64,000 bases of DNA from Methanoculleus frigidifontis (lineage in GTDB: Archaea; Halobacteriota; Methanomicrobia; Methanomicrobiales; Methanoculleaceae). This document shows, one piece after another, positions 6,575-29,031 of this stretch (the first letter of the stretch is position 1; the number at the start of each line of letters is the position of its first letter). The translations under genes were made by a program, and so were the position numbers. The stretch lies in the NCBI RefSeq assembly GCF_030464345.1, contig NZ_VCYH01000009.1:1-64000 (forward strand), written 5' to 3'. The notes beneath the pieces were generated by a model. The model made no database searches. It was given only the letters and a program-made list of their open reading frames with translations, and was not told the origin of the DNA.

Positions 6575-6654
6575 TGCCACAACCTTCAAGCGAGTGCTTG
6601 TAGGTCGGCAGGTGTACACTTTATCCCGCCATAATTGCACAAAATTAAACCGCT

Positions 6655-11792: not shown

Positions 11793-11905
11793 TATCTCTG
11801 CTCCTTGTGCTTGATTTGGTCATTAACACAAGGAGCAACGATTTTATAGATCTTTCCCCTCCGGGCAGGAATGGCCTACCTCAGGGTTTCAACAGAGCCG
11901 ATTAA
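10898..11905 (-). mobile_element. IS5-type insertion sequence with inverted repeats
   Basis: The ends carry the inverted repeat TCGGCTCTGTTGAAWCCCT, at about 10898-10917 and again inverted at about 11884-11903. The element sits in the polysaccharide locus between the GT-C-like gene and older transposon debris. No clear target duplication was found. Confidence 0.75.
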
Positions 11906-12184
11906 TCAGGACTTATATTTGTCGTTTTTTTGTTTATGCTTGTATTTGCGGGTATGAAAGTCATCCACCAAGGAATTGTAGAGCCGATGGAGTTTGGCAA
12001 GGGAAGGCTCTTCCTTTGAAAAGAACCCGAAGATCAGGGTCAGAAGAAATTCTACTGGGAATATCTCCCTCGATCGCCGAATAAATCCGCACGTGACTGC
12101 CGCACAAGCAATCTCCTCACAGGAGAGAGATGCTGCCAACTCGTGCTTCAAGAGATGCCATTCGAAGGTACTCTTTACAGGCAT
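11906..12184 (-). pseudogene. IS4-type transposase N-terminal fragment
   Basis: The 90-residue frame MPVKSTFEWHLLKHEL...FPVEFLLTLIFGFFSKEEPS resembles the N-terminal (non-catalytic) part of IS4-type transposases. It ends in an Lys-rich tail where the IS5 element begins. The catalytic domain is absent, so it is a fragment cut off by that insertion. Family assignment is tentative. Confidence 0.45.
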
Positions 12185-12194
12185 GAGACCTGCC

Positions 12195-13010
12195 CTGATA
12201 GAGAGCTCATCCCAGAATTCTCCAGATCATGATGGCACATACCGGGCGGATCAGCCCGAGGAATGAGTGTCGGTAGCATTCAAACCGAGGAGTACCTTTT
12301 TGAACGCCTCAATCCAGCTGAAGAACCGTTCGATGGCGCTGCGCTTCTTGTAGAGTTCCGGATCGAACCAGAACGGCCTTCCCCGCTTCGGGTGTGTCCG
12401 GGATCTCCTGTTGACCGGAATATTGCTTTTTATGCGTCTCTTCCGGTTGTACTGGCGGATCTCCCGTGCATCGTAAGCAGCATCGGCTGAGATGAACGAG
12501 GGATGATCCTGAACATCCGGCATTTGGGAATGCTCCGAGTGTTGGTTCATAGAGCTGGGAGTCATGGACATTGGCGGGTGAAACCGTGCAGGCAAGGGGG
12601 AGTCCATGCCGATCGACCAGAGTGCTCAGCTTGTTCCCGCTCACCTTCTTATAGCCATCATAGCCGGTAGATCCCCCTTTTTCGCTGGGATATCCTTGGT
12701 ATCGGTGGAACAATGCGTGAGATCGACTTTTCGGATCTCATATCCTGATTGGAGAAGGTCGAGGAAGATCGCCTGGTACGCCCCTCTCTCACAGAGTTCG
12801 AGGTGGTAGCGGTGAACCGTCGATTTCGTGCCGTATTTCTCCGGCACGTCGTGCCAGGTGCAGCCGGTGGTCAGGACGTACAGGATACCGTTGATCAGCC
12901 CGCGGGGGTCACGCCGCGGGCGGCCAATGTGCAGCTTCGTTGGGGGGAGGTATTTCTGGATGATCTCCCGGAGAGCATCGTCGATTTCGGTAACGTTTCA
13001 GATTTGCTGT
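12195..13010 (-). pseudogene. IS5-family transposase with several frameshifts
   Basis: Pieces in three frames assemble into one IS5-type protein: HIGRPRRDPRGLINGILYVL, VHRYHLELCERGAYQAIF, VDLTHCSTDTKDIPAKKG, then GYDGYKKVSGNKLSTLVD, PSFISADAAYDAREIRQYN, and SAIERFFSWIEAFKK followed by a shift near 12305 into RHSFLGLIRPVCAIMIWRILG. It is the decayed relative of the copy at 1-317. The 5' end abuts an IS256 element at about 13003. Confidence 0.8.
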
Positions 13011-14232
13011 AAAATCGTTGAGCCCTGTTTCCTTGTCTGATCATTCCTTCTCAATCGTCAAATATCTTCTGCCGGTGACCCACTCCTCGTTGATGTCCAT
13101 CAGGATCGAACCAGCCAACCGGAGAAGGGCATCTTCATTGGGGAATGCTCCTACGACCTTTGTTCTCCGCTTCAGCTCCTTGTTGATTCTCTCCATCATG
13201 TTCGTGGTTCGAATCCGTTTCCCGTGGTTTTTTGGAAACGCGGTATAACTCATGAGCCCTGGAAGGAACCGCTCGATGGTATTGGCTGCTTTGCGGTACC
13301 CTCGTGTGTTCAGGTCGTCAGCGAGATCCTGCAACCGCTGCTCATCGCCATATGCTTCCTTCAAAGATTCAGCAACCTCTTTCTGGTGTTTCTTTGGGAT
13401 ATTCTTCAGGACAGCCCGCGAACAGTGCACCTGACACATCTGCCAGGATGCACCGAGGAAGGCGGCCTCCGCCGCCTTCTGGATGCCGGTATGGCCATCG
13501 GAGATGATCAGCTGGACGCCGGCGAGTCCTCGTTCCTTGAGGTCTTCGAAGACCCCTGCCCAGAACGCTTCATTCTCACAGTCGGTGATCCGGGCTCCCA
13601 GGATCTCCCGGAAGCCGTCGTCCCGAACCCCGGCGGTTACCAGGAGAGCTTTGGTGACATACCGAGCTTCCTCTCTGACCTTGTAGTAGGAAGCATCCAC
13701 GAACAGGTAGGGCATTTCCTGTTCGATCGGCCGCTGAAGAAACGCCTGAACCTGCTCATCGAGGTCTTTCGCCATCCGGGAAACGGATGCAGGCGAGAGC
13801 TGTTCGATCCCGAGATGCTGAACGATATCTTGGACTTTCCGGGTCGAGACACCCTGCAGGTAGGATTCTGCAATGGCATTCACGAGAGCCTTCTCCACCC
13901 GTGCATACCGCCCGAAGACCGCTGTCTCGAAGGGGACTCCTCGCAACTGTGGTTTTTTCAGGGTAGTCTCACCATACCGGGTTTTCAGAGAACGGTCTTT
14001 GTAGCCGTTCCGGTAAGTTTTTCTCACATCGGTTCGCTCGTAATGCCCGGCTCCGGTCTGCTGGAAAGCCTCCAGCAGCATCACCTGGTTCAGGAACCAC
14101 GTGATGAGGTTCAGCATGCCCTGATCGTTGTCGGAAAGATAATCTTCGATTAACGCTAAGGTATCCATGACCCTGGTTCTCCTTTTGCCAAATCTAGGTA
14201 GGATTCAGGGTCAATTCAATTTTACAGAAATT
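13003..14232 (-). mobile_element. IS256-family insertion sequence
   Basis: Inverted repeats containing CTGTAAAAT and a CCCTG block lie at about 13003-13027 and inverted at about 14205-14232, around a complete transposase gene. It has inserted next to or into the IS5 pseudogene at 12195-13010. Confidence 0.75.
13041..14168 (-). CDS. IS256-family (Mutator-type) transposase, full length
   Basis: A 375-residue transposase. The catalytic residues are visible: Asp in YLFVDASYYKVRE, Asp in LIISDGHTGIQKA followed by the typical CQVHCSRAVLKNIPK, and Glu in RTTNMMERINKELKRR. Length and ends (start MDTLALIEDYLSDN, end WVTGRRYLTIEKE) match the family and no lesions are seen, so it may be active. A related C-terminal relic at 15901-16118 marks an earlier insertion. 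Confidence 0.92.
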   Translation of the reverse strand: MDTLALIEDYLSDNDQGMLNLITWFLNQVMLLEAFQQTGAGHYERTDVRKTYRNGYKDRSLKTRYGETTLKKPQLRGVPFETAVFGRYARVEKALVNAIAESYLQGVSTRKVQDIVQHLGIEQLSPASVSRMAKDLDEQVQAFLQRPIEQEMPYLFVDASYYKVREEARYVTKALLVTAGVRDDGFREILGARITDCENEAFWAGVFEDLKERGLAGVQLIISDGHTGIQKAAEAAFLGASWQMCQVHCSRAVLKNIPKKHQKEVAESLKEAYGDEQRLQDLADDLNTRGYRKAANTIERFLPGLMSYTAFPKNHGKRIRTTNMMERINKELKRRTKVVGAFPNEDALLRLAGSILMDINEEWVTGRRYLTIEKE

Positions 14233-14374
14233 TCGTTACGCTACCTCGATTTCCCGGAAGGCCATGAATCTGGGTATTATCTGAGAGGCCTTATATTTTT
14301 AGGATGTCCTCAGAGTATAATGGTGCCGAAGGGCTGAGGGGTGGGAGCCAGGAAACCCGATCGGGTCAACGATA

Positions 14375-15709
14375 CTATGCTTTAACTGATAACATATGGG
14401 TGATATTTGATATCGCTTTCAAATTTAATTTAATCAATATAATATTCATTGAAAGCATAATCAGCGCATAGATTGTCAGCATTATTAACACTGGCACTCC
14501 ATACAGTTGTCCTATATAAAACCCAACAAAAACTGCAACAAGACGAGTAATGTCCCAGATGAGCTTCCAGTGATTAAAACCATAGATTTCCAACTTTGTC
14601 GTTGGATATACAATAAAATTCGGAATAACATGCAGAGCTAGCGGTAGACAATACCAACCTGCTTCTATCCATGCCTCTCCAAAAATTACTGGTACAACGA
14701 AAGGAGCACATAATGCAAAAGTGCCAATTAATGGAATGGCGATAAAAGATAGGTGCCTGATCGTTTTAACGTAAAGTGACCGTAAATCCTGTGATTCCTC
14801 CCTTACCATCTTTGATGCTTCACCGAGGTATGCCTGTGCCAATGATCTTGAAATTGCACTTCCCGGAATTACCATCATACTATTAGCAAGCGCATAAAAG
14901 CCGGCGGTTTGTCCATCATATATTGCCAGGAGCATGATAGCGGGGAGATATATTGTAAAGTTGTTTACGATAGAGGCGGGGAGATTTAATACTGGAAAAC
15001 TCCAATATTCTTTTGCAACAGTTTTGATACCGCTAAATGAGATTCTTCTCAGGCCGTCCCGCTCTTTTATCCACATGGCGCGGGAGTAGGTTCCTATTCC
15101 GGCTATTTCAGAGACAACATGCCCAATAATCAAACCTATTGGGCCAAAAGAAAGAAAGCCGAGAAGGATTTTGAATACTGCACTACAAGCACTCTGGTTA
15201 ATTTTTGTATAGGTGATTCTCTTATAATCTCTCTGCCGTATTGCCCAATAGTTGAGTGTGGTATAGAGTCCTATACCAAAGAAACCCAAAATAAGTAACA
15301 ATACGTAATCCGCAAGAGGATCTAGGTTGAGGATGTTGACTAAAATATCTCCTCCAAATAGTAGAATAAGTGAGAATCCTGCAGTTGTAGCAATCAATAA
15401 AATTAAACACAAAGCAAAGAGGTTCGCAGCACCATCATCTCGTTTTGGTAATGCGTACGCAAATTCATACCGAAAAGTGGCAGTAACGGCAACAATTGAT
15501 AATATTGAAGTATATGCTGCCAGGAGGCCCAGATCTTCAGGTGTATATATCCGTGTGATTATTGGCATTGACAGAATGCCTATTAGCTGAGCCAATATTG
15601 TTCCACTCCCAAGAACGAAAACACTTTTGTATAGAGGATTGTTTGAGATGAACCGAATAATTTTTGTAGAAAGTTGATTACTCTCAATTATATCATACAC
15701 TCGTTTCAT
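14375..15709 (-). CDS. Wzx-type lipid-linked oligosaccharide flippase
   Basis: A polytopic protein of about 444 residues with 12-14 predicted membrane helices, of the MATE/MVF-like polysaccharide transporter clan. It begins with an amphipathic stretch, then the typical first helices (SVFVLGSGTILAQLIGILSMPIITRIY, here with the diagnostic TRIYTPEDLGLLA region split by helices). It should move undecaprenyl- or dolichol-type lipid-linked glycan units across the membrane for surface assembly. The ATG at 15709 (MKRVYDII) is preferred over one 18 bases upstream. Insertion sequences flank it on both sides, so it is now cut off from the rest of the operon. Confidence 0.85.
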   Translation of the reverse strand: MKRVYDIIESNQLSTKIIRFISNNPLYKSVFVLGSGTILAQLIGILSMPIITRIYTPEDLGLLAAYTSILSIVAVTATFRYEFAYALPKRDDGAANLFALCLILLIATTAGFSLILLFGGDILVNILNLDPLADYVLLLILGFFGIGLYTTLNYWAIRQRDYKRITYTKINQSACSAVFKILLGFLSFGPIGLIIGHVVSEIAGIGTYSRAMWIKERDGLRRISFSGIKTVAKEYWSFPVLNLPASIVNNFTIYLPAIMLLAIYDGQTAGFYALANSMMVIPGSAISRSLAQAYLGEASKMVREESQDLRSLYVKTIRHLSFIAIPLIGTFALCAPFVVPVIFGEAWIEAGWYCLPLALHVIPNFIVYPTTKLEIYGFNHWKLIWDITRLVAVFVGFYIGQLYGVPVLIMLTIYALIMLSMNIILIKLNLKAISNITHMLSVKA

Positions 15710-15900
15710 ATTTTCCCCTAACGGCATACTGTTACTATACTTAGATTCAGAACCAGTAAATTGTTACTGCATTGTATCTTGTGAGACTATCTGACTCTCT
15801 CGATCATAGTACTCTGCCTGTCCATCTATGCGATTGCGGAGCGATATCGGTAGCATCTCATATTTTCTGTATTTTGCCCCGTGCCTTGAATCGCCTCTGA

Positions 15901-16118
15901 TCATTCCTCGTCCATTTGCAAATACTTTTTGCCGGTGACCCAGTCCTCGTTGACGTCCATGAGGATCGAGCCTACCAGTCGAAAGAGTGATTCCTCATTG
16001 GGAAAGACCCCGACGACCTTTGCTCTGCGTTTCAGTTCTCTGTTCACCCGTTCTACCATATTGGTCGTCCGGATCCGTTTCCAATGCCGTTTGGGGAACG
16101 CCGTATAACTGATCCCAC
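15901..16118 (-). pseudogene. IS256-family transposase C-terminal relic
   Basis: The minus strand reads ISYTAFPKRHWKRIRTTNMV, ERVNRELKRRAKVVGVFPNE and MDVNEDWVTGKKYLQMDEE before the stop. This is the last 70 residues of an IS256 transposase, similar to but diverged from the intact one at 13041-14168. The rest is gone, replaced by the IS1634-type element. Confidence 0.85.
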
Positions 16119-16135
16119 ATTCCGCGTGTCTTTGA

Positions 16136-17660
16136 TCACAAATAGTTACTTTTGTACTCCTGCCCGAGCAACTGGAGTATCTTCCAGAACTCCGGGTTCA
16201 TGTTCGTAACCAGCACTGTCACCGCCTCTCCCGCTTGGAACCGCAGTTCCCGGACACCCCGGAATCGGAAGAACAGCCACTTCAAGGTCGGGTTCTGGGT
16301 CTGCTTCTTGGTCTGGTCGGTCATCGTTTCACCGGTCTCCTGCAGTTTCCGGCGGAGCCGGAACTCGGTCATCGCATAGATGAAGAGGCAGAACATCATG
16401 ATCATCGCCAGCGCCTGAATCCGCGACGGTTTCTTGAGATAGATCTCCGCCACCCGGAATGAGGGATCCTTGAGGAACCGGAACCCCCGCTCTACCGTGC
16501 CCTGCTCTTTGTAGTTCGTCAGGAGCTCGTCAGGTGAGAGTTCTAGATCATTCGTCGCCAGAACGAACCGGCCGAGTTTCTGTCGACGTTGTTCGACAAC
16601 CAGGAGGTTGTGTTCAAGCTCCGCAGAGACCGTATAGACCGTTTCCACCGGCTCATCCGCCTTCGGCCTACCCCGCTTCTTCGTTATCTTCCGGGTAGTT
16701 GTTCGGATGTCCAGAGAGCTAAAACAAAACTGCGGGTTCTCCTGTAACCACTTCTCGGCAGCGATCCGGGCATCCGGTTCGCAGGCGAACTCCCGTGCCC
16801 CGAGTTTTCGCAGCGACGTCTCGGCTGTCCTCTTGTCTTTCTCCATCCTTTTTGCGAACGTCTTTTCCTGCTGCTCCTGCATCGGTGCTGAATGGTAGAC
16901 GACCCACTTCTGCGGGATGCCAGCATAGTCAGATACATGCTCCGTATACCGGTAGCGGCCATCCGCACACGGGTGCAGGGGGAGGTCTGCGGCAACGAGA
17001 TCCTTCATCTCGTTCAGGGTCGCCGGCACCCGGCTGATCCAGAACGTGCGGGTGCCAAGCGTCGCGAGGTTCTCGGCGGTGTAGAAGGCGGCATCGGCGA
17101 TATGGTAGACCTTGTCCGGGTGCTGCAGGTTCTCGGTGAGCTGGGTGATGATCGTCAGCAGGGTCTTCTTATCGGACTCGTTCCCGGAGACGGTCTGCAG
17201 GAAGAGCCGAATGCCGTGCTGATCGGTCGCCATTCCGAGGACGAACTGCTTGAGATCCCATCGGCCGTCCTTGGGATGGCTAGGTGATGGTCATGTCGCG
17301 GGAGTCGAAGTCGGCGTCGTACTCGCCGCTGACGCTGAAGGCGGTGGTGTCGATGTGGAGGCAGTGCGTGCCGTAGTCGCTGGCGAGGAGGCACTCCGCC
17401 GCGATCGCGTTAAAGAACTCGGCCGGGCCGTACGCGGCGATCGCATCGAGCGTCCTGCCCAGGACGTCGTCGTTGAGATGCTCGGTGGTGATGCCGTCGC
17501 CGAGGAGCCGGTCGACGGCAATCTCCGAGAAGAACTCCGGGTAGAGGTAGAGGCGTCTCTCAATGAACCCGAGACCGTTGAGCACCATGGCTTTGACAAT
17601 ATCCCCGTGGGTGAGGTGGTGCTGGCGCGTTTTGGGAATCCTGGATTCCCGGCGACACAT
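16136..17660 (-). pseudogene. IS1634-family transposase with one frameshift
   Basis: The N-terminal part (17280-17660) reads ...HCLHIDTTAFSVSGEYD up to SRDMTIT. It then hits TAG at 17278, where two bases are missing from the expected ITYGHPKDGRWD. The remaining 365 codons continue unbroken: VLGMATDQHGIRLF, DKVYHIADAAFYTAENL, and the Glu motif YKEQGTVERGFRFLKDP. Apart from this single lesion it is full length, so the damage is recent. Programmed frameshifting is not usual in this family. Confidence 0.85.
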
Positions 17661-17744
17661 AACGATGTGAAGAACAATAAAGTATTATCTGCCTTTGATT
17701 GCTATTTAGTTGAGAGATTATTAGTATTCTGAAATACCGAATCA

Positions 17745-17772
17745 CGTTATGTGTTGGGTGCAACACATAACG
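17745..17772. repeat. 12-bp arm inverted repeat upstream of the IS1634 gene
   Basis: Perfect arms CGTTATGTGTTG (17745-17756) and CAACACATAACG (17761-17772) are separated by GGTG. A further copy of the right arm's ACACATAACG lies at 17655-17664, within the first codons of the transposase gene. It may be a transposon terminus plus regulatory site. Confidence 0.7.
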
Positions 17773-18498
17773 AGTAAAATAAAATGTCTCAATGATATTT
17801 ACTCCGTTCGAAATTTAAGTCTAAATTCAGTCAATTTTTGTGAGCCTCGTTATGAATGAGCGGGACTGTAGGGGGAATAGCACAGTCAATGACCCCGGCG
17901 ATCCCGAGGGTGTCGAAAGCACCGGCGAAGATCCCGAGATGGCCGATCGAGACGTCGGAACCTTCGATGAATTCAGCAGAAGTGGGCACAGCAGAGGTTA
18001 TTTATTGAAAGTACAAGGATCTTGCGGTTTGATAATTCTACCGAGGACTCAAGTTAGTGCGAAAGGTAGGATGATCACCATCATCTGGCATCTCATCGTG
18101 AATGGTGAAGATTACGTCGATAAGTACAGTGAATCCAGACATCTTCAATCCCCACAGATGCATACTCTTCACATTCCCGCACTATACGCTTGAAGACGTC
18201 ATCCGTCTGGTGTCCGAGGCGATAGAGTTCCTGAACCGACGCGATCTAGATCCTGCTTGACGAGTCACTCCGAGGTACTTCCTGAAGAGAAATCCGGCCG
18301 TCCGGGGTGCAGGATGAGCGGATGCTTTTGAGAATTTGTTCTCCTTCCATAAGCGAGCACTCCTGCTTTTCGAGAGGTTTCTAAACCGAGAGGAACAAGG
18401 AATACACTATGAGAGTAAGGCTGCATCTGGCCGGATTAGGGAATCACCCCGCCACCTGACGACGACTTTTTCATGGAAACATTTAAAAAGATCTCGCG
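17773..18498. other. Spacer with transposon debris
   Basis: No convincing gene. A plus-strand stretch at about 18050-18160 reads AKGRMITIIWHLIVNGEDY, like the end of IS110-type transposases. A different frame at about 18165-18261 gives HYTLEDVIRLVSEAIEFLN, possibly from another element. Both are short and disconnected. The rest is unassigned. Confidence 0.35.
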
Positions 18499-19593
18499 TC
18501 ATGGGATAATCTCCATCCATATATCTTGGGCAGCACTCATTGTAATCCTTTCTGTGACAGTTTTTATTGAGTTATTTGAATAATCATGTAATATATCCGG
18601 ATTTTGCAATAGCCATATTATTGATGTTGCGAATGATTCAACATCATTATAATCGCGAATGAGGATCCCATTATATCCTGTCTGGATAATGTCTGTAACA
18701 TCTCCGCACATTGACGATACAACTGGCACTCCACAATGCAAGGATTGCATAACTGATTGGGGAAATCCTTCTCGCTCTGAAGTTAATAGGTTTATCTTAC
18801 TTTTATTTATCCAGTTCCAAGGATCCTTTTTCCATCCATAGAACACAATTGTATTCGATAGATCGAGAGAATCTGATAAATTCACAAGGTTTGTATATTC
18901 TGGACCATCTCCTACGATAGCTACCTTAATGTCTGGAATCACCTTTTTAGCCAAATAAGTTGAATGTATGACCGTTTCAACATGTTTCACCTTTGCCAAT
19001 CTACCTAAAAAGAGAACATCAATTACTTTGGGTATGCTAGTTTGAATAAAATTATTTTCCATCGGTTTATACAATATAAAAATTTTCTCTTTATTTATAC
19101 CAATTTTTTCCAGAAATGATTTAGTATAGGTTCCATTTACAATTATTATGTCCATTCTTTTCGCAATATGCCTGACAAATAAACCGTATAATGATAACTC
19201 CGGTAATGGCCTTGTGTAAGCATATTTTTCTATTGGACTGCCAGGTTCAAAAAATTCAACTGGACCAGCAATTAGATTTACTCCTACTCTCTTTCGAGTC
19301 AATTTTCCAATAATATAAGCTAGCATGCCGTGAGGGAAAAGTAAATATCCCAAAACCAGTTTTGGTTTATATTTTAATGACAAATATAGCAGATACAAAA
19401 ATTTGATAAATAAGCCAATTGGATAAATTTTTACAGACCATGTAGGTGGGCAATAGTACTTGACTTTATCCACGCTTGGCCCGATAGTATCTCTTACAAT
19501 TAAAATGGTATCTACTTCATCTATTTTTGTGAGTGGATAGATATGGTTTCGCAAATTTAGATCTGATAGTTTCATAGTTATGAGAAGATTCAT
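18499..19593 (-). CDS. GT4-family glycosyltransferase
   Basis: A 364-residue GT-B fold enzyme predicted to add a sugar from a nucleotide donor to a growing glycan at the cytoplasmic face. The C-terminal Glycos_transf_1 domain shows DVLFLGRLAKVKHVETVI, VAIVGDGPEYTNL, FYGWKKD and the donor-binding LLTSEREGFPQSVMQSL plus CGVPVVSS. The N-terminal half is diverged, with a hydrophobic FLYLLYLSLKYKPKLV segment. It overlaps the capA-like stop by 4 bases (ATGA) and is the last gene of the 29-18.5 kb operon. Strongly AT-rich. Confidence 0.88.
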   Translation of the reverse strand: MNLLITMKLSDLNLRNHIYPLTKIDEVDTILIVRDTIGPSVDKVKYYCPPTWSVKIYPIGLFIKFLYLLYLSLKYKPKLVLGYLLFPHGMLAYIIGKLTRKRVGVNLIAGPVEFFEPGSPIEKYAYTRPLPELSLYGLFVRHIAKRMDIIIVNGTYTKSFLEKIGINKEKIFILYKPMENNFIQTSIPKVIDVLFLGRLAKVKHVETVIHSTYLAKKVIPDIKVAIVGDGPEYTNLVNLSDSLDLSNTIVFYGWKKDPWNWINKSKINLLTSEREGFPQSVMQSLHCGVPVVSSMCGDVTDIIQTGYNGILIRDYNDVESFATSIIWLLQNPDILHDYSNNSIKTVTERITMSAAQDIWMEIIP

Positions 19594-20678
19594 GCCTCAT
19601 ACCTTCTTTTTTTTCCAAAATACGAGCTGACTGTACTGCACACTGTAGAAAAGGAATATCGATACAAATTTTTAACAAAGTGAACTTTCATATTCCACTT
19701 TACAGCTGCTTTATACTTATTATATAATAGGTTATAATCCCCAATATACGTAATATAATCCGACAATGAGCGGTTCTCGAATGAATTTCTGATTGCTCCG
19801 ACAGACATTAAAAAAGCATCTGAATGAGGTGAATTCATGATATGGGGGTGATAATCGTACGCATTAATAGTAACCGGAGTAATATTAATGTCCATCAAAT
19901 CTGATGAGTCCTGAACATCAATCTCTGCAATAAATGATTCTCTGGTCGTAGGGATGTACGTGTGATCAAAGATAAAATTACCCAGACTGTAAAAAATGGG
20001 TCGGTTTTTGTAGATTTCATAACTCTGAGTGATGTGGGGGTGCCCTCCAAGGATAATATCGGCACCTGCATCGACAAGATCCCGGCCTATTTGGATTTGG
20101 TCAGGCGAGGGGTACGGAACATATTCAGACCCCCAATGCAGAGATATGATGATCAGGTCTGAAACAGGTTTTACTTTTTCAATATCTTTGATAATTGCAT
20201 CCTTATGGTAAATCTTATTGTAACAGACATCAGCAATGTGATCCTCTATATAGGAATAGCCTAGAAAAGCAATCCTATACCCTTTGATGTGTAGGATTTC
20301 AATCTCATCTCTAACTCCCACAGGGGCTATATCATTGTCTTTGAGATTTTTGACCGTATGGAGAAATGTCTTCCGGCCGTTTTCCATGATGTGATTATTT
20401 GCAACTGAAAGGACATTGAAATGAGCGTTTTTCAGACCTTGGATGACTTCTGGCTCTGCACAGAAAAAAACCGAATCTTTGCCGGTTTTTGAGTTAATGT
20501 CCATGATCGAACATTCTAAATTTCCAAAAACAATGTCCCCGTCCTTGAATAGGGGGGAAACCTCCCTGAAGAGGTATTTTGAACCGTTCTTCTGAATTAC
20601 GCTTTTCACCCCAAAAGTATCACATAAGGGCTGCTCTCCCAGCATGATGTCGCCGACGGCGTATATTTTAAGAGGCAT
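19590..20678 (-). CDS. CapA-family capsule-synthesis protein
   Basis: A 362-residue member of the CapA/PgsA metallophosphoesterase-like family. It shows AVGDIMLGEQP, FGNLECSI, SVANNHIMENG, IISLHWGSEYVPYP, GGHPHITQS and FYSLGNFIFDH, which together form the metal site. Bacterial CapA helps make or export poly-gamma-glutamate. In archaeal glycan loci the exact role is unknown. No signal peptide is seen. Its start shares one base with the stop of the upstream capK-like gene (TAATG), so the two are probably translationally coupled. Confidence 0.88.
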   Translation of the reverse strand: MPLKIYAVGDIMLGEQPLCDTFGVKSVIQKNGSKYLFREVSPLFKDGDIVFGNLECSIMDINSKTGKDSVFFCAEPEVIQGLKNAHFNVLSVANNHIMENGRKTFLHTVKNLKDNDIAPVGVRDEIEILHIKGYRIAFLGYSYIEDHIADVCYNKIYHKDAIIKDIEKVKPVSDLIIISLHWGSEYVPYPSPDQIQIGRDLVDAGADIILGGHPHITQSYEIYKNRPIFYSLGNFIFDHTYIPTTRESFIAEIDVQDSSDLMDINITPVTINAYDYHPHIMNSPHSDAFLMSVGAIRNSFENRSLSDYITYIGDYNLLYNKYKAAVKWNMKVHFVKNLYRYSFSTVCSTVSSYFGKKRRYEA

Positions 20679-22018
20679 TATCTACGCTCCATTTCATTTA
20701 GTATGAATTTGTACTTCCCCGCCTTCGTTCTCTCAATCTCATCAACTAGTTGAAATCGAATTTTCCAAAGGGGACTTTTTGATTGTATTATTTGTTTTAT
20801 TCTCTCCAATTCCTCCGCATCAAAACTATCTTCTATGACCAACTTTACGTGAATTTCATCCACAGTCTTTTGCACGACTTGGTATTCTTTGATCCCTTGA
20901 CAATACTCCCAGAAAATGTATAAAAAGAACCAACCATGTACGTTTTTTCCTTCAGGGGTGATAAGAACATCAACTGTCCGGCCAATGATCTCTTTTAATA
21001 ATTTATACCCTCTTCCGCATTCGCACATATCTTCTGTAATATATACATCGTCCCCGGTAGCGTACCTGATAAACGGCATTGAAAAGTTATGCAGGCTCGT
21101 TGCGAGGATCTGCCCCCCCCCGTTATCAACAACCTGGCCGCCATCTTGAGCAACGACCTCCGTAATGCTCCGTTCGGTATCTATGTGCAGCCCATAATGC
21201 TCGGGACATTCGTACGCACTGACCCCCCCGTCGTTCAGGCCGTACCCATCAAAGACATCGCACCCGAAAACCCGGTCGATCGTCTCCCGCATGTGAGGAA
21301 AGAGTTTATCTGAGGTAGTAAATACTGCCTTGGGAGAAGGAACGGGAATGTCATTCTCTTCTAACCATTGGGCATAGAAATAGATAGATGAGGCGTATCC
21401 TCGAATGAATTTGGGCTGAAAAGTGTTCAGGATGCACGCATAGCTCCGCATTTCTGGCTCGCCCATATCGAAGGAAGAGATCTTCTTAAGGTTCCTCGCG
21501 ATCTCGTGAGCCTTTGTGATAAGATTGGACTTTGTCCCGACATTAAGGGATGACCCGGCAAGAAAGACCATCTTATCACCAAGTTCAAAGCCTCCATACC
21601 CCCATCCTCGGTAGAGGAGAGCTCCGCCTAAAAAGCGGTCGTTTTTTGATATTCGGTACTGGAAAGGGGTGCCGGTCGAACCACCGGTTGCCCGATCTTC
21701 GTACTGCATTGCGGAGAGGCTTGCTGGCTTGAGTTCCTTCCAGTGTTCCTGTATGATCTCTTTTGTCAGGATGGGAAGTTTCTGGAGGTCTTCAATTGTG
21801 CGTATATCCTTGGGAACAAGTTTAAGCTCTTTGAAGAGGTTGCTGTAATAGGGAACGTTCTCGTACACGTAGGAGACCATACGCCTTAGTTGTTTTTCCT
21901 GTTCTCCTTTTAATTCCGCATAGGGTCTCCACTGGTTTTTCATAAGACGCTTGTAGGTCGGGTAGAATGAGTGTTCCCCAATGGTATGTGCCAAGATGAA
22001 TAATTGCTTATTGAACAT
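20678..22018 (-). CDS. CapK/PaaK-like adenylate-forming enzyme
   Basis: A 446-residue protein of the phenylacetate-CoA ligase-like (CapK) branch of the ANL superfamily, which activates a carboxylic acid as an acyl-adenylate. Motifs are the P-loop-like TGGSTGTPFQYRIS, VFDGYGLNDGG, MPFIRYATGDDVYI, CECGRGYKLLKEIIGR, and a C-terminal Lys region (ERTKAGKYKFI). Homologues are common in capsule loci, where the substrate is seldom known. Here it may activate an acid for attachment to a sugar. It lies just downstream of the wecC relic and is coupled to the capA-like gene. Confidence 0.87.
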   Translation of the reverse strand: MFNKQLFILAHTIGEHSFYPTYKRLMKNQWRPYAELKGEQEKQLRRMVSYVYENVPYYSNLFKELKLVPKDIRTIEDLQKLPILTKEIIQEHWKELKPASLSAMQYEDRATGGSTGTPFQYRISKNDRFLGGALLYRGWGYGGFELGDKMVFLAGSSLNVGTKSNLITKAHEIARNLKKISSFDMGEPEMRSYACILNTFQPKFIRGYASSIYFYAQWLEENDIPVPSPKAVFTTSDKLFPHMRETIDRVFGCDVFDGYGLNDGGVSAYECPEHYGLHIDTERSITEVVAQDGGQVVDNGGGQILATSLHNFSMPFIRYATGDDVYITEDMCECGRGYKLLKEIIGRTVDVLITPEGKNVHGWFFLYIFWEYCQGIKEYQVVQKTVDEIHVKLVIEDSFDAEELERIKQIIQSKSPLWKIRFQLVDEIERTKAGKYKFILNEMERR

Positions 22019-22522: not shown

Positions 22523-23629
22523 TCATGATTCATCATCTGGGGCATGAGTACAGGAGTATTGCACCCCGGGGTGCTCTTTGATCTCTGCAGAACTTTGGGG
22601 ATAGTTCTCGATAAGCCAGACGAGAAACGCAGTCACATCGATCTTATCTTTCAACAGATTGTCTCTTTTTTGTACCCAAGCCTCCTTGATTTTGGGCTGT
22701 TGCAAAAGTTCAGTCGCTTTGGATAATGCAATATGTTCATCGGAGTAATTATATATAAGGCCGTATTTCTGTTCAAGTTCGATGAAGTTACCCATGTCAT
22801 TACTCCCCACAAAAGAATTGCATCTAATAGCTGGAGTACCTAACACTGCAGCTTCTGTTGTCATCGTTTGTGAGTCACAGAGAAGAATTTTAGCATAATA
22901 TAATGCATCATGCATTTTTTCTGGTGGAATACTTATCTGGTACTTTCTTAACGGTTTTGGTAGTGCTGCCTCTGAACTGATTAAAACATTGGAATACTTT
23001 TCTAGTTCCTTAACTATTTCTTCTTTATTTCCTAGACCTTTATGCCCGGCATCGTGCTGAGCGTTCCATGCTACGAAGTGAACAATGGTGTAGGGGTCTT
23101 TTTCATCGATCTGCAATTCCTTAAGAATTGATGGATCTGGGATAAAGTAATTTGGATGGAGATATGCAAGTTCCTTATACCCCTCGTATCGAATCTGCTT
23201 TTGACCTAAATCATTACGGAAGGTAGATGGGGTACAGATAATATCTACAAATGGATAAGTAAGTATTTTATTGATTGGAACTGGTTCGCTGTCATTGAAT
23301 AAGATGACTGGTGTGCTGGTCAGTTTTCCAGCCAGTGCGACAGTTTCTCCAGGTCCGCAAATGAGATCGGGTTTGAAAGCGCGAATCAATTCTGACAGGT
23401 TTCGAATCCGTTGAAATAACTCAATGGATAATCCTGTGAATCCTATTTTCTGTTTACTAATTACTCTATATTCGATATTATAGTGAGATAGCAGCTCAAG
23501 AAGTACATCCTTATCCCGGGCTGATACTAGAACGTCATGTCCATGCTCTTGAAGCTTTTTAATCGTATTTTTATGGAAGTGTACCTGTGCGGGATGGCCA
23601 ATATCGAAGATTAGTCTCATGTTAACCAT
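22523..23629 (-). CDS. DUF354 glycosyltransferase-like protein
   Basis: A 368-residue protein of the DUF354 family, which has a GT-B fold related to MurG and UDP-GlcNAc 2-epimerase. It starts MRLIFDIGHPAQVHFHKN, continues with DLICGPGETVALAGKLT, and the C-terminal half has LLCDSQTMTTEAAVLGTPAI, the likely nucleotide-sugar binding loop. Members occur in archaeal surface-glycan loci with wecB/wecC. The reaction is not established. Start taken at 23629 (MVNMRL). A start three codons later is possible. Overlaps the acyltransferase by 8 bases. Confidence 0.82.
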   Translation of the reverse strand: MVNMRLIFDIGHPAQVHFHKNTIKKLQEHGHDVLVSARDKDVLLELLSHYNIEYRVISKQKIGFTGLSIELFQRIRNLSELIRAFKPDLICGPGETVALAGKLTSTPVILFNDSEPVPINKILTYPFVDIICTPSTFRNDLGQKQIRYEGYKELAYLHPNYFIPDPSILKELQIDEKDPYTIVHFVAWNAQHDAGHKGLGNKEEIVKELEKYSNVLISSEAALPKPLRKYQISIPPEKMHDALYYAKILLCDSQTMTTEAAVLGTPAIRCNSFVGSNDMGNFIELEQKYGLIYNYSDEHIALSKATELLQQPKIKEAWVQKRDNLLKDKIDVTAFLVWLIENYPQSSAEIKEHPGVQYSCTHAPDDES

Positions 23630-24128
23630 CCAGTTTTTTAATCACCTTTGCTGGCACGCCCACAGCAAGACTATTTGCGGGTATACTCTTGTTTACGACC
23701 GCACCCGTTCCGATGACAGATTTCTCCCCGATCTCAACCCCCTGGATCACGATGCAGCCCGGGGCCATCCATACGCCCATGCCTATCTTGACGGGCTGCA
23801 CGCTTCGGGGATACTTCTCGCGGAGAGGGAGGGTTCCCCGTGAATGGGCGCTGATGATGCAGCGGTCTCCAATCTCGGCGTAGTCCTCAACGGTGATGTA
23901 CTCGGGGTGAATGCGGTCGAAGATCACGTCGTATCCGATGTACACGTTTTTGCCGATGTTGACGCCTCGCATCCGGTGGAGGCGGGCTCTCCAGGAGGGG
24001 ATGGGGAAACTGGATGCGAGTCGTTCGAGTATCCAGTTCTTGAAAAACTTGAGGCCGAAGAGGATGGCATTCTGGTTCTCGAACTGGATCGTTTCTTCGA
24101 ATGCGATTTTGTCCCGGTTGGATATCAT
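23622..24128 (-). CDS. Hexapeptide-repeat (LbetaH) acyltransferase
   Basis: A 168-residue left-handed beta-helix transferase. Imperfect hexapeptide repeats run from about residue 55 (VNIGKNVYIGYDVIF) to 160 (VEIGEKSVIGTGAVVNKSIP), with the catalytic-type His in ISAHSRGTLPL. It ends in the common VGVPAKVIKKL. Such enzymes transfer acetyl or longer acyl groups from CoA to sugar hydroxyls or amines. Its position directly behind a thiolase and a 3-hydroxyacyl-CoA dehydrogenase suggests the acyl donor could be 3-hydroxybutyryl-CoA instead of acetyl-CoA. That is inference. Confidence 0.88.
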   Translation of the reverse strand: MISNRDKIAFEETIQFENQNAILFGLKFFKNWILERLASSFPIPSWRARLHRMRGVNIGKNVYIGYDVIFDRIHPEYITVEDYAEIGDRCIISAHSRGTLPLREKYPRSVQPVKIGMGVWMAPGCIVIQGVEIGEKSVIGTGAVVNKSIPANSLAVGVPAKVIKKLDG

Positions 24129-25234
24129 CTGTTCACCTTTCCGTATGTGTAGAAGCCTTCTCCGGACTTAAATCCAAGTTTCCCCTGTTCGATGAGATCG
24201 GAGAGTAACTGTGCCGGTTTGTATTTGGGGTTGTTGAACTCCTGGTATAAGACCTCAAGGATCGAGAGGCAGATATCAAGGCCGATGAAGTCTGCGAGTT
24301 GGAACGGTCCCATGGGGTGGTTTAAGCCGAGCTTTATGGCGCTGTCGATATCTTCCTTCGATGCGACTCCCTCTTCGAGGAGAAGAACTGCTTCGTTGAT
24401 CTGCGGGAGAAGGAGCCGGTTGACGACGTACCCCGGACTGTTCTGGACGATGATCGGCTTTTTGTTCAGCGCTGTAACAATACCGATGATCGAGTCTTTT
24501 GTCGCGTCGGATGTCATTGAACCGATGACGACCTCGACCAGATCCATCCGGTGGACCGGATTGAAGAAATGCATCCCTATACATTTTTCTGGCCTGTCCG
24601 TTGCCCCGGCGAGATCGTCTATCGAGAGTGACGAAGAGTTTGTTGCAAGGATGGTGGAGGGCTTGCAGACCTGTGAGATGCTATGGAAGATCTCCCTTTT
24701 AATGTCCATATCTTCTGCTGCGGCTTCGATGATGACGTCACAGTCTGCAAGGCCCGAGTAATCGGTCGTGATGGTCAGGCTCTGAAGAACCGCTTCTGTT
24801 TCGGCGTCGCTCATCCTCTTTGCGATCTGCTTCTGTATCTTTGAGACCGCCTTTTTTGCGCTATCGTCGGAGCGTGTCTTCAGCACGGTTGGGTAGCCGT
24901 ATTGAATGAGATATGCGGCTATCTGAGAGCCGAGGAGGCCGGTGCCGATGACGCCGATCTGGTCTCTCTGTACGTCATTCTGCTGGATATCGATGATATC
25001 GCCGATCTCATACTTTTGGAAAGACTTTTCGATTTTCTTGTGCCCATGTAAGTCTTCCAGAATGTTGACGAAGTAAGGCACTTTTTCATTTCCGGTTGAG
25101 GGCACGAAGACTTCGGATGTGCCGATAACCCGGTACTGGGTTTCCTCAACCGGGGTTACGCCCTGTCCGCAGAAGATACACTTCTCGACAGGGTGGTTCC
25201 AGCACTTGTGGCACTGGAGACAGCAGTATTTCAT
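24125..25234 (-). CDS. 3-hydroxyacyl-CoA dehydrogenase with N-terminal zinc-ribbon/OB-like domain
   Basis: A 369-residue fusion. Residues 1-80 resemble a DUF35-type rubredoxin-like ribbon and OB fold: Cys pairs in YCCLQCHKC and EKCIFCGQG, then ending near KYEIGDIIDI. Residues 90-369 are a complete NAD-dependent 3-hydroxyacyl-CoA dehydrogenase: IGVIGTGLLGSQIAAYL (Rossmann), IIEAAAEDMDIKREIF, ATNSSSLSIDDLA, catalytic His/Glu region MHFFNPVHRMDLVEVV, and NSPGYVVNRLLLPQINEA. It should reduce acetoacetyl-CoA to 3-hydroxybutyryl-CoA or the reverse. The ATG at 25234 is chosen: it forms a TAATG overlap with the thiolase stop, as in the capK/capA pair. An ATG at 25264 would overlap by 31 bases. Confidence 0.87.
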   Translation of the reverse strand: MKYCCLQCHKCWNHPVEKCIFCGQGVTPVEETQYRVIGTSEVFVPSTGNEKVPYFVNILEDLHGHKKIEKSFQKYEIGDIIDIQQNDVQRDQIGVIGTGLLGSQIAAYLIQYGYPTVLKTRSDDSAKKAVSKIQKQIAKRMSDAETEAVLQSLTITTDYSGLADCDVIIEAAAEDMDIKREIFHSISQVCKPSTILATNSSSLSIDDLAGATDRPEKCIGMHFFNPVHRMDLVEVVIGSMTSDATKDSIIGIVTALNKKPIIVQNSPGYVVNRLLLPQINEAVLLLEEGVASKEDIDSAIKLGLNHPMGPFQLADFIGLDICLSILEVLYQEFNNPKYKPAQLLSDLIEQGKLGFKSGEGFYTYGKVNR

Positions 25235-26367
25235 TAGATGCCCTCCATAAGCGTAATGCCGCATGTCCCGCCGATCCCGCCGATATTCTGGGTGAGACCC
25301 AGCTTTGGATCCGATACTTGACGCTTTCCAGCCTCCCCTCGGAGTTGTGTGACTATCTCGTAGATTTGAGCGAGTCCCGTGGCTCCAATGGGATGCCCGT
25401 CTGCTTTCAGCCCACCATCGGTATTGACGGGGTGCTCGCCTCCGGGGAGAATGCTTCCGTTCTCAATAAGTTCGGGCGCCTCTCCAGGTCTGCAGAAGCC
25501 GAGGTCTTCCAGTGCGAGAAGCTCGCTTATCGTGAAGCAGTCGTGGACTTCAAGGATGTCTATCATGTCGGGCGTGACTCCTGTATCCTGGTACACCTTT
25601 CTGGAGGCGATCTTTGTGGCGTTGAACGAGGTCAGGCTCTCCCGCTGTGTTAATGAGATTGTATCTGTTGCGATACGGGAGCTGAGGATTTTCACATCCC
25701 GATCTGACTGTTTTTTGCTGGATATGATTATTGCAGCTGCCCCATCGGAGAGTGGGCTGCAGTCGAAGAGGTTCAGGGGCGACGCAACCCTGGGGGATTG
25801 CTTGATCATCTCCACGGTGACATCTTTATGATAGAAATGCGCCAGTGGATTGAGGTTTGCGTTCTTGTGGTTGATATATGATACCTGCTCCAGCGCATCA
25901 TGTGAGATTCCATATGTACTCATGTACTGCTGAGCGATCAGTGCATATGCTGCGGGGAAGATCAGCCCCTGCTCGTAATCGTTCTTATAGTCGCCAGCCA
26001 TTGCAATTGCATCGGTTGGGGAGATGAGGTGTGTCCCCGTCATCTTCTCAACCCCTACGATCATGATGTTTGGTGTCTTTTCAAGACAATTGATAGCCTG
26101 ATTTAATGCAACGCTACTTGAGGCGCAGGCGGTTTCAATCCGGATGATGGGTATATTGAGTGAGGGGAGGAGCGATGCGATGATCGAGTTGAAGTGGAGC
26201 TGCCCGTTGAGAGGCCCGCCGAGGAAATTTGATACGAAGATTGCATCAATGTCGGTAATATCCAGAGGACTATCCTCGACGGCGTTGAGCATAGCCTCAT
26301 ATGTCAATTCTGGAAGGGTTTTTGTAAGAGCTCCGAATTTGGTTCGTCCGATACCGTTGATATACAT
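25234..26367 (-). CDS. Thiolase (acetyl-CoA C-acetyltransferase type)
   Basis: A 377-residue thiolase of the archaeal/SCP2-like type. It carries the nucleophilic Cys in IRIETACASSSVALNQ, the His of GGLKADGHPIGATGLAQ and the C-terminal GGTCGI. It would condense two acetyl-CoA to acetoacetyl-CoA. In archaea such thiolases usually sit with HMG-CoA synthase and a DUF35 protein for isoprenoid synthesis. Here the DUF35-like part is fused to the next gene's dehydrogenase and the surroundings are glycan genes, pointing to a dedicated use. Ten bases separate it from the upstream deacetylase. Confidence 0.87.
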   Translation of the reverse strand: MYINGIGRTKFGALTKTLPELTYEAMLNAVEDSPLDITDIDAIFVSNFLGGPLNGQLHFNSIIASLLPSLNIPIIRIETACASSSVALNQAINCLEKTPNIMIVGVEKMTGTHLISPTDAIAMAGDYKNDYEQGLIFPAAYALIAQQYMSTYGISHDALEQVSYINHKNANLNPLAHFYHKDVTVEMIKQSPRVASPLNLFDCSPLSDGAAAIIISSKKQSDRDVKILSSRIATDTISLTQRESLTSFNATKIASRKVYQDTGVTPDMIDILEVHDCFTISELLALEDLGFCRPGEAPELIENGSILPGGEHPVNTDGGLKADGHPIGATGLAQIYEIVTQLRGEAGKRQVSDPKLGLTQNIGGIGGTCGITLMEGI

Positions 26368-26376
26368 AATTCACCC

Positions 26377-27300
26377 TCAAATACTGTTCTTTACGAGTTC
26401 TCCGAGCGTCGCCGTCTGTCTATCCTTGAACTTGCCTAGAATGTAGCGCACTCTCTTTTCAACGAGTTTCCCTTTCACAATCCAGTAGAATGGCCTTTTG
26501 TTGCCGACATCGGGGAAAGACTCGGTAGAGATATCGATGGGATGGAAGTAGAATATTGAATCCCCTCGTTTTAAGCATTGTTTTATGCCCTGATACACAA
26601 CCCGCCCTCCTAAAAACCGTAACATCGGTCCTCCTGAGGTAGGGATTTTCGCTCCGAGATTGTAATATGCAAAGGGAAACTCAACAATACTCCGTTGCAG
26701 AGTCGATGGCTCCAGACCGCCGTGCGAAGGGTAGTAGGGATACGATGACACTCCGGATAGGGAAGAATCGGTCTTATTGTACAGTGAGTTGACAGAAACC
26801 GATGAATCGTACCTGAAACCCATTCTCTCAAGCGAGTCGATCATCCACCCGCCGATGAGTGCATTTGGTGCACGGTACCCAATTATTTTGTCCCCGGACA
26901 CTTTTTCTAGGATCTGTTTTGCATGCAAAGTTTGTATTTCAAATTGTTCTTGACTGAGCAGTGGTTGTTTTGTTGCTGGATCAATCTTGCATGCGTGGGT
27001 TAATCCGTGGCAGGCGATCTCATGACCCTGCTCCACAATTGACTTGACCAGGCCGGGATACCGGTTAACCACATCTGCTACGACAAAGAATGTAGCACGA
27101 ATGTTGAACTGATTGAGTAGATTTAACACTCGATGAGTTGGCTCGGTCAGGTAGTCGTACCTTTCGGTCCATGTGTTGTAAAACTCTTCGACACCCTTGT
27201 AGGCAGAAAACGGCGACCCACAGACTGATGGAATGTGATACCAGTCCTCGATATCAATAGTAACTGCGAGCGAGTTGTTGGAGGTAGGTGACATGGTCAT
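26377..27300 (-). CDS. Polysaccharide deacetylase, DUF3473-like
   Basis: A 307-residue NodB-clan protein: DIEDWYHIPSVCG (metal Asp), TFFVVADVVNRYPGLV, the HxxxH metal motif CHGLTHA, GYRAPN and FYFHPIDIS. The extra C-terminal region after the NodB core resembles DUF3473, found in PEP-CTERM/exosortase-associated deacetylases. It probably de-N-acetylates a lipid-linked or polymeric sugar. It follows the double GT2 gene by 3 bases and precedes the thiolase by 9, so it is co-transcribed. Confidence 0.88.
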   Translation of the reverse strand: MTMSPTSNNSLAVTIDIEDWYHIPSVCGSPFSAYKGVEEFYNTWTERYDYLTEPTHRVLNLLNQFNIRATFFVVADVVNRYPGLVKSIVEQGHEIACHGLTHACKIDPATKQPLLSQEQFEIQTLHAKQILEKVSGDKIIGYRAPNALIGGWMIDSLERMGFRYDSSVSVNSLYNKTDSSLSGVSSYPYYPSHGGLEPSTLQRSIVEFPFAYYNLGAKIPTSGGPMLRFLGGRVVYQGIKQCLKRGDSIFYFHPIDISTESFPDVGNKRPFYWIVKGKLVEKRVRYILGKFKDRQTATLGELVKNSI

Positions 27301-27303: not shown

Positions 27304-29031
27304 TCAGTTCGTACCCGCACTGTTCTTCTCCGCCTGCATATCAAAGAACATCGCGAAGAACAAGAACTGCATCCCCAGCATGAGCATCAGGAACGACAGC
27401 ACCCCGTGTACGAAGAGCACCGGGTAGCCCATCACGAACTTCTCCCAGAGGGTTATCAAGCCCCCGACTACCCCAATCGGCGCGAGCACCGCCCCGGCGA
27501 GGTAGAAGAACGCGAGGGGATGGAAACCCATCTGGATGTACTTCGTCTTCAGGCGGAAGAGGAAGTTCCCGAGGAGGAGCTTCGAGACCCTCGGGATGTA
27601 GGTCGAGTAGCGGATCTTCGACTTCTCCCGGCCGTAGCGGGCCGGGATCGCGACGTCCCTGACGGTCATGTTGTGGATGTTGAGCCAGACCAGGAGGTTG
27701 TTGCAGTAGCCGTAGCCTTGGTAGACGCTCTCGAGCGGGAGCTCGGCGAGGGCTTTGACCGAGATCGCCGTGTAGCCGTTCTGGGGATCCATCATCTGCC
27801 AGTAGCCCGAGGCCACCTTGGTGAGGAAGGTGAGGAGGGAGTTGCCGAAACTCCGCCAGGGCGGCATGCCCTCCCGGTAGGCCTCGTTGATGAGGCGGTT
27901 GCCCTTGGTGTAGTCGGCCCTGCCGTCAATGATCGGGTCGAGGAGGGAGGGGAGGTGAGTTGGGTCCATCTGGTTGTCCCCGGCCATCACCGCGGCGACG
28001 TCCATCCCGTCCGCGATCGCCCGCTTGTAGCCGGAGGTGATCGCCGCCCCGACGCCCCGGTTCGGGTTGTGGTGGATGGGGATGATCCTCGGGTCGCGTT
28101 CGGCATAGGCGTCGATGATCGCCCCGGTTCGGTCGGCCGAGCCGTCGTTCACCGCGTAGATCCTGGCGACGTAGCCCGGGATGCCGTCGAGCGTCTCCCG
28201 GATTAGGTCCTCCTCGTTGTACGCCGGGATCACGACGGCGATCTGCTTCCCGCGGTAGCAGGGTTCTCCGTGCATGACCGCGCTCGTGCTCGAGGCTCCC
28301 GCGGTGTCTGGGTACACCCCGAGCGGCACCGCGGCAACCTGGAGGTGGTGGTCGTTGATCTGGAGCAGGATCTCGGAGCTGGCGGAGATGCCGTTGCCGC
28401 CCGGACGGATGGCCTCGATCGCCCGTTTGCCGTATGCCCCAAAGCCGTCTTGGAAGTCGGATATCGCACGATCGGTGCCGGCCATCGTGGTTGCCCTGCC
28501 GGGCACACTTATTCCGGCCTTCCGGTCGGCGGGAGTTCCGTCGCCGTTGCCGTCGACGAACCGGGAGCCGATGACGACATCCGGTCCCTTCCGAAGCTCG
28601 GCGAGGAGGTGTGGGATCTCCTGCGGGTTGTGCTGGCCGTCGGAGTCGATGATGACGAGCTCCTCGGCGCCGACCTCGCGGGCTGTTGCAAAGATCGTCT
28701 GGAGCGCTCCGCCGTAGCCCTTGTTGGTCTCGTGCTGTACGACGAGGGCGCCGAGGGCTCTCGCAATCACGACGGTGTCGTCTTTGGAGCCGTCGTCGAC
28801 GACGAGGACCCTGTCGGCGGATTTCTGGGCGCCGACGATCGTCTTCGCGATGTACTTCTCCTCGTTGTAGGCGGGCATGGCGACGATGGTGCGGATCTGT
28901 TTTGCCGGCGTTTTGGCGTCCGGTCTTCCGAGCTCGTCGACGAGGAGCGTGGGCTCGTCCTCGGGAACCTGCCGGTCTGGGGCGGGCTTGACGGGAGATG
29001 CCGGAGAGGGACTGGTCGTGCGGGTCGTCAT
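27304..29031 (-). CDS. Double GT2 glycosyltransferase with C-terminal membrane helices
   Basis: A 575-residue protein with two GT-A domains in one chain. The first (about 45-240) shows TIVAMPAYNEEKYI, VLVVDDGSKDDT and ELVIIDSDGQHNP. The second (about 265-500) shows AVVIPAYNEEDLI, YAVNDGSADRTG and VAAVMAGDNQMDP. It ends with two hydrophobic segments (FYLAGAVLAPIGVVGGLITL, then LSFLMLMLGMQFLFFAMFF) that should anchor it in the membrane. Both domains resemble dolichyl-phosphate mannose/glucose synthases. It heads the minus-strand operon and, unlike the AT-rich genes behind it, is strongly GC-rich, so it probably belongs to the native chromosome. Confidence 0.88.
   Translation of the reverse strand: MTTRTTSPSPASPVKPAPDRQVPEDEPTLLVDELGRPDAKTPAKQIRTIVAMPAYNEEKYIAKTIVGAQKSADRVLVVDDGSKDDTVVIARALGALVVQHETNKGYGGALQTIFATAREVGAEELVIIDSDGQHNPQEIPHLLAELRKGPDVVIGSRFVDGNGDGTPADRKAGISVPGRATTMAGTDRAISDFQDGFGAYGKRAIEAIRPGGNGISASSEILLQINDHHLQVAAVPLGVYPDTAGASSTSAVMHGEPCYRGKQIAVVIPAYNEEDLIRETLDGIPGYVARIYAVNDGSADRTGAIIDAYAERDPRIIPIHHNPNRGVGAAITSGYKRAIADGMDVAAVMAGDNQMDPTHLPSLLDPIIDGRADYTKGNRLINEAYREGMPPWRSFGNSLLTFLTKVASGYWQMMDPQNGYTAISVKALAELPLESVYQGYGYCNNLLVWLNIHNMTVRDVAIPARYGREKSKIRYSTYIPRVSKLLLGNFLFRLKTKYIQMGFHPLAFFYLAGAVLAPIGVVGGLITLWEKFVMGYPVLFVHGVLSFLMLMLGMQFLFFAMFFDMQAEKNSAGTN

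Follow-up and report, generated by a model that had tools for sequence, protein, structure and literature searches.

Several DUF35-linked enzyme complexes that handle acyl-coenzyme A (acyl-CoA) are known. In the archaeal complex of thiolase, DUF35 protein and 3-hydroxy-3-methylglutaryl-CoA (HMG-CoA) synthase from Methanothermococcus thermolithotrophicus (6ESQ), a common CoA site serves thiolase and synthase, which do not release the intermediate, according to the summary of this complex in PMC12329534. In ChsH1-ChsH2-Ltp2 and Shy-Sal, a DUF35 domain fused to a second enzyme of the acyl-CoA pathway tethers a thiolase-fold partner, and for Shy-Sal channelling was found not to be significant (PMC12329534). 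Here we describe a module of three genes, encoding a thiolase, a DUF35-dehydrogenase fusion and a hexapeptide acyltransferase, in a surface-glycan operon of the archaeon Methanoculleus frigidifontis. It lies within positions 1 to 64,000 of contig NZ_VCYH01000009.1 (assembly GCF_030464345.1), and this whole stretch of 64,000 nucleotides is called the window. We consider it likely that thiolase and fusion form a complex that makes (S)-3-hydroxybutyryl-CoA, that the adjacent acyltransferase puts the acyl group on a sugar of a surface glycan, and that the block moves horizontally. The module itself is real, conserved and horizontally moving; its predicted function is well supported by context.

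In bacteria, amino sugars with (R)- and (S)-3-hydroxybutanoyl groups and the corresponding transferases are established (PMC3726653, PMC4869667, PMC9676051). The gene sets for FdhC, QdhC, Pse5Ac7R3Hb and QuiNAc4N(S3Hb) resemble our locus in that a 3-hydroxybutyryl group, predicted in our case, reaches a surface sugar via an acyltransferase encoded in the locus (PMC4869667, PMC9676051, PMC3726653). In these papers, however, the transferase is present and a thiolase goes unmentioned, whereas the window locus encodes the acyl-CoA supply itself. A partial precedent is the capsule locus of V. cholerae O31, which contains a lone open reading frame (ORF) for a 3-hydroxybutyryl-CoA dehydrogenase (PMC1847822). 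In the literature searched, which was open-access only, we found nothing relevant on hydroxybutyryl groups in archaeal glycans.

Thiolase and DUF35-dehydrogenase fusion

The module comprises the following features (aa, amino acids):

25234..26367, minus strand: thiolase, gene 1 of the module, 377 aa (PF22691, 8.7e-44; PF00108)
25264-24125, minus strand: dehydrogenase gene, a two-domain fusion, 379 aa
24971..25234, minus strand: DUF35-type domain, aa 11-98 of the fusion (four invariant Cys and predicted fold)
24137..24964, minus strand: 3-hydroxybutyryl-CoA-dehydrogenase-type domain, aa 101-376 of the fusion (PF02737, 3.5e-55; PF00725, 2.8e-34; PRK05808, 4.3e-101)
23622..24128, minus strand: hexapeptide acyltransferase, left-handed beta-helix, 168 aa (PF00132, 2.2e-11)

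An initial annotation of the window, made from the sequence, had placed three genes with overlapping ends here, inside a row of glycan genes, and this placement is confirmed, as are their families by Pfam and NCBIfam. For the second gene, the family name of 3-hydroxyacyl-CoA dehydrogenase (HADH) holds (PF02737, PF00725), but the DUF35 domain at residues 11-98 had been missed.

The thiolase is of the SCP2/archaeal acetoacetyl-CoA type, and its best PDB match is the archaeal acetoacetyl-CoA thiolase of 6esq (1.1e-76). Its motifs are intact, with Cys81, His275-Asp-Cys277-Phe (HDCF) and His325, the histidine of the GHP motif, and these catalytic motifs are common to the mevalonate thiolase encoded elsewhere in the same genome. 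The two proteins differ in their match to NF053570, an equivalog model for archaeal acetyl-CoA thiolases with a cut-off of 600: the genome's own enzyme passes with 612.5 bits, whereas the window thiolase fails with 366 bits.

In the dehydrogenase gene, ∼100 extra residues with a zinc-ribbon/OB-fold DUF35 domain precede the 3-hydroxybutyryl-CoA-dehydrogenase-type domain. Cys15, 18, 29 and 32 are invariant across all fusions and also occur in the genome's own DUF35 protein. Because a fold search with the full-length protein returned only dehydrogenases, the N-terminal domain was modelled separately with AlphaFold2, which gave a zinc ribbon and an OB barrel (pLDDT 84.8). The top 17 PDB matches of this model all belong to the DUF35 family, and most are thiolase-complex subunits (6ok1, 5m3k, 7pyt, 6esq), the best with an E value of 2.4e-3 and prob 1.00. 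A Pfam search with the N-terminal 100 residues alone gave zero matches even at an E value of 10, so that the DUF35 assignment rests on the four cysteines and the predicted fold. As homologues of the fusion begin at Met11, its true start is probably at 25234, in a one-base overlap with the thiolase stop codon.

By profile, sequence and fold comparisons, the dehydrogenase domain is closest to the C4, butyrate-type 3-hydroxybutyryl-CoA dehydrogenases, although its PRK05808 score of 337.9 falls below the curated cut-off of 408. Foldseek matches it to the (S)-3-hydroxybutyryl-CoA dehydrogenase 6aa8 (1.2e-36), the clostridial Hbd, with which it shares the fold, the catalytic residues and, in a structural alignment over the HADH domain, 49% identity. 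The catalytic Ser, His232, Glu244 and Asn282 are retained in all five fusions known to us (see below). Unlike Hbd, the window protein carries the extra DUF35 domain, has no crotonase or butyrate genes nearby, and shows a Thr/Ser-Arg loop in place of an Asp. This loop follows the second beta strand and reads Thr-Arg or Ser-Arg in 5/5 fusions (Lys-Thr-Arg in the window), while most of 40 other HADHs have Asp or Glu there. In Rossmann folds, Thr/Ser-Arg in place of the acidic residue at this position is the usual mark of a preference for NADP(H). A coenzyme loop of the NADP type would fit the biosynthetic direction, and NADPH is probably the coenzyme used.

Compared with the 6ESQ complex, the window pair has the same thiolase type, a DUF35 zinc-ribbon/OB domain, overlapping genes and a second acyl-CoA enzyme that is predicted to consume acetoacetyl-CoA. 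It differs in that this consumer is an NAD(P)-dependent HADH fused to DUF35 instead of a separate HMG-CoA synthase, and in that it lies in a glycan locus and not in a mevalonate one; the canonical set is also present in the host. ChsH1-ChsH2-Ltp2 and Shy-Sal combine a fused hydratase with a retro-aldolase in steroid catabolism, whereas here a dehydrogenase is combined with a thiolase of the condensing type in a biosynthetic locus. We met no description of a DUF35-3HCDH combination in the literature searched. The fusion partners of DUF35 named in a published survey are thiolases, Rossmann domains resembling short-chain dehydrogenases, SCP2 and hot-dog dehydratases, with 3HCDH unlisted (PMC2954200).

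Recurrence and horizontal transfer of the gene pair

The pair of thiolase and fusion was found in only five genomes, three archaea including the window's host and two Cloacimonadota; its recurrence in four genomes besides the host's argues against chance. A search for the trio near glycan genes in archaea, as the initial annotation had suggested, was thus positive in two further archaea. In each of the five loci, the thiolase is directly followed by the fusion and a sugar-type acyltransferase is adjacent. Glycan genes follow the pair in four of them, and the fifth contig is 3.6 kb long.

The locus most similar to the window is L002 from Candidatus Cloacimonas sp. SDB, which has thiolase, fusion, hexapeptide protein, DUF354, CapK and CapA in the window's order, with proteins 49-78% identical. 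In L055 (G479, from the same phylum as the Cloacimonas genome), thiolase, fusion and hexapeptide protein are followed by a DUF3473 deacetylase. L083 (G1278, from the window's order but another family) has the hexapeptide gene upstream of thiolase and fusion; other surface-polysaccharide genes follow the fusion, among them a PIG-L deacetylase and a PF00953 transferase. In L042/L013 (archaeon G102, from the window's phylum), an OafA-type Acyl_transf_3 protein comes after thiolase and fusion, and upstream of the pair are a PglD/NeuD-type acyltransferase, a PF02719 sugar-nucleotide dehydratase, a DegT aminotransferase and a UDP-sugar dehydrogenase. We also observed a complete-looking amino-sugar set, an epimerase included, ahead of the pair at L042:10592-18392. 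Beside the 34% GC cassette of L083, positions 5497-18228 hold an ATP-grasp enzyme with a second similar-looking ORF, a PF13480 GNAT-like protein with similar-looking neighbours, and the PIG-L deacetylase.

The pair is rare: it occurs in 2/232 genomes of the window's order and in 2/125 genomes of the phylum of the Cloacimonas genome. No fusion was detected among 346 phylum genomes sampled around a Balneolaceae genome or 349 sampled around a Clostridiales genome, both of which gave HADH-only matches, and the viral contigs searched contained no relative. A scan of genome contigs found one fusion; it used exact peptide patterns from a single sequence and is therefore not exhaustive. Other Cloacimonadota thiolases were set aside, and the one inspected (L084) adjoins an HMG-CoA synthase.

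All five fusions form one clade in the HADH and thiolase gene trees (support 100/99 and 100/100). In the HADH tree the window copy is sister to L002 (100/97), although L083 comes from the window's own order. The cassettes are also low in G+C (GC) content: 0.45 in the window against 0.60 nearby, 0.34 against 0.60 in L083, and 0.43 against 0.49-0.55 in L042. In trinucleotide use, the window, L083 and L042 cassettes are nearer to one or both Cloacimonadota samples than to the window's host; those of the window and L083 are nearer to Cloacimonadota than to their own hosts, and that of L042 is nearer to G479 than to its own. For the acyl-CoA supply in an archaeal glycan operon, as first annotated, one correction applies: the trio is an imported low-GC block that does not look native to its host. 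The low GC relative to the archaeal hosts, together with the closeness of the window and Cloacimonadota copies, indicates that the transfer crossed domains; it may have run either way, as both Cloacimonadota contigs are short. Misbinning of these contigs was considered: in composition they resemble their own bins and are far from the window's host, in a comparison of short contigs and samples. In the window, GC falls sharply from the glycosyltransferase family 2 (GT2) gene (0.645) to the deacetylase (0.471). The deacetylase therefore seems to be part of the imported block, whereas the host-like, high-GC GT2 gene marks its edge.

Predicted product, acceptor and alternative readings

The host has a canonical row of HMG-CoA synthase, thiolase and DUF35 genes elsewhere (G000:C11), with HMG-CoA reductase close by, which argues that the window thiolase and fusion are dedicated enzymes. 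The glycan operon contains no HMG-CoA synthase and has the fused 3HCDH domain instead. Since the genome contains no other HADH and no crotonase, the product seems unlikely to have another sink; no HADH was found in 60 relatives of this genome either. These absences, the retained catalytic residues and the recurrence of the pair with two acyltransferase superfamilies in glycan loci support the first annotation's proposal of a dedicated 3-hydroxyacyl-CoA supply for the acyltransferase.

Two molecules of acetyl-CoA would be condensed by the thiolase to acetoacetyl-CoA, which the HADH domain would reduce to (S)-3-hydroxybutyryl-CoA, probably with NADPH; the S configuration is predicted from the dehydrogenase family, e.g. 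6AA8. The DUF35 domain would dock the thiolase as in the archaeal HMG-CoA synthase complex, with the covalently fused dehydrogenase replacing the synthase. The adjacent acyltransferase would then transfer the 3-hydroxyacyl group to a surface-glycan sugar, and the whole block would be exchanged by horizontal transfer among glycan loci in Cloacimonadota and in methanogen-type archaea. A bolder version is a mobile assembly line that channels acetoacetyl-CoA unreleased to (S)-3-hydroxybutyryl-CoA, uses exchangeable acyltransferases and, spread among Cloacimonadota and methanogen-type archaea, gives unrelated organisms the same glycan decoration. This version is tentative, and channelling is only a possibility here, because 6ESQ keeps its intermediate while Shy-Sal shows no significant channelling.

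The window acyltransferase is 78% identical to the module partner in L002 and 40% to that in L055. It has the hexapeptide repeats (PF00132) and a loop His; this residue, His95, is invariant across the three partners and, from an alignment to SACOL2570, is the probable catalytic residue. The protein is related to sugar O-acetyltransferases and is a candidate 3-hydroxyacyl-CoA:sugar acyltransferase. For the acceptor, an amine or a hydroxyl group may be envisaged. The NodB-type deacetylase, proposed in the first annotation to free the amine, possibly does so; the DUF3473 deacetylase that also adjoins the module in L055 is 29% identical to it, and the PIG-L deacetylase, ∼12.5 kb from the module in L083, could likewise provide a free amine. 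In L042, the families of the PF02719 dehydratase, DegT and PglD point to a pathway that ends in an N-acylated amino sugar; since the synthesis of an amino sugar seems within reach of these neighbours, N-acylation is suggested there. O-acylation would instead be possible with the OafA-type and hexapeptide O-acyltransferases.

Several points weigh against a 3-hydroxybutyryl glycan. The proposal draws on only five known loci, and two of these lie on metagenome contigs as short as 6.8 and 3.6 kb. The hexapeptide enzyme is most similar to acetyltransferases, a C4 hydroxyacyl donor is not readable from its sequence, and the acyltransferase differs in protein between loci. Thiolase and HADH could also handle longer or branched acyl-CoA, and another DUF35-linked pair lacks significant channelling (PMC12329534).

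The strongest alternative, which we judge improbable, is that the module makes a longer, branched or methylated 3-hydroxyacyl-CoA, such as 3-hydroxy-2-methylbutyryl-CoA, for glycan acylation. SCP2-type thiolases with DUF35 partners do take varied substrates (benzoylsuccinyl-CoA in 7pxp, steroid side chains in 6ok1), and the CapK/PaaK-like enzyme encoded in the window and L002 operons could activate another acid. However, no such enzyme is visible beside the module in L042, L055 or L083, and the HADH domain is nearest to butyrate-type C4 dehydrogenases as the thiolase is to the acetoacetyl-CoA enzyme. It is very unlikely that the acyltransferase only acetylates while the thiolase-fusion product serves some other purpose in glycan assembly, e.g. 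a lipid carrier or a branched sugar. The best scores of the hexapeptide protein are indeed with acetyltransferase families, but its 78% identical partner has been carried along with the module between one archaeal and one Cloacimonadota genome, and elsewhere acyltransferases of another superfamily take its place. As the same pair stands beside acyltransferases of two unrelated superfamilies, hexapeptide and OafA-type, we infer that it supplies the acyl donor. Slightly less probable still is a role of the pair in central or storage metabolism (butyrate, polyhydroxybutyrate, fatty acids), with its place in the glycan operon an accident of transfer: both enzymes come from families typical of butyrate and polyhydroxybutyrate metabolism, yet the genome lacks a crotonase and a second HADH, and an acyltransferase lies beside the pair in 5/5 loci, with glycan genes wherever the contig is readable.

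The glycan operon and its surroundings

The remaining features of the operon, whose neighbouring families are those first annotated, are:

29031 to 18499, minus strand: glycan operon of ten genes, the compact row that holds the trio
27304..29031, minus strand: tandem GT2 glycosyltransferase (NF058614 and TIGR04182 matches; GC 0.645, GC at third codon positions 0.887)
26377..27300, minus strand: NodB-type polysaccharide deacetylase with DUF3473 (PF01522, 1.2e-18; PF11959, 2.7e-10)
22523..23629, minus strand: DUF354, glycosyltransferase-like (PF04007, 7.1e-22; 49% identical to the L002 counterpart)
20678..22018, minus strand: CapK/PaaK-like adenylate-forming enzyme (NCBIfam AMP-dependent CoA ligase families; 70% identical to the L002 counterpart)
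19590..20678, minus strand: CapA, PGA_cap (PF09587, 1.8e-61; 62% identical to the L002 counterpart)
18499..19593, minus strand: GT4 glycosyltransferase (PF00534, 1.9e-31; the lowest GC of the block, 0.336)

On the minus strand, the order is two-domain GT2, deacetylase, thiolase, fusion, hexapeptide acyltransferase, DUF354, a UDP-sugar dehydrogenase remnant, CapK/PaaK-like enzyme, CapA and GT4. One half of the GT2 protein resembles the polyprenyl-phosphate sugar synthase PpgS, the other AglJ of S-layer N-glycosylation. The ORF at 22526-22008 is a decayed UDP-sugar dehydrogenase gene: it matches only the C-terminal part (PF03720, residues 77-152), with the upstream portion in a different frame. 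At the equivalent spot, L002 has a different short ORF. Left of the glycan block, positions 1-17700 are dense in mobile DNA, with several transposase genes, some apparently broken (e.g. 17660-17280 and 17233-16136, which lie in two frames). This region also encodes a reverse transcriptase of a group II intron (2666-1092), and Rfam detects pieces of group II introns at 1033-1109, 2959-3112 and 7521-7597.

If our reading is true, the thiolase/DUF35 architecture would have a further use, besides docking HMG-CoA synthase and tethering hydratase and aldolase, in providing glycans with a 3-hydroxyacyl donor. A 3-hydroxybutyryl decoration, which we met in no archaeal glycan paper searched, would also be predicted on a methanogen-type surface. 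The pair offers a compact two-protein system for asking if DUF35 makes channelling possible past the unfavourable equilibrium of the thiolase, and the passage of a surface-glycan trait between domains is relevant to microbial partnerships and virus recognition.

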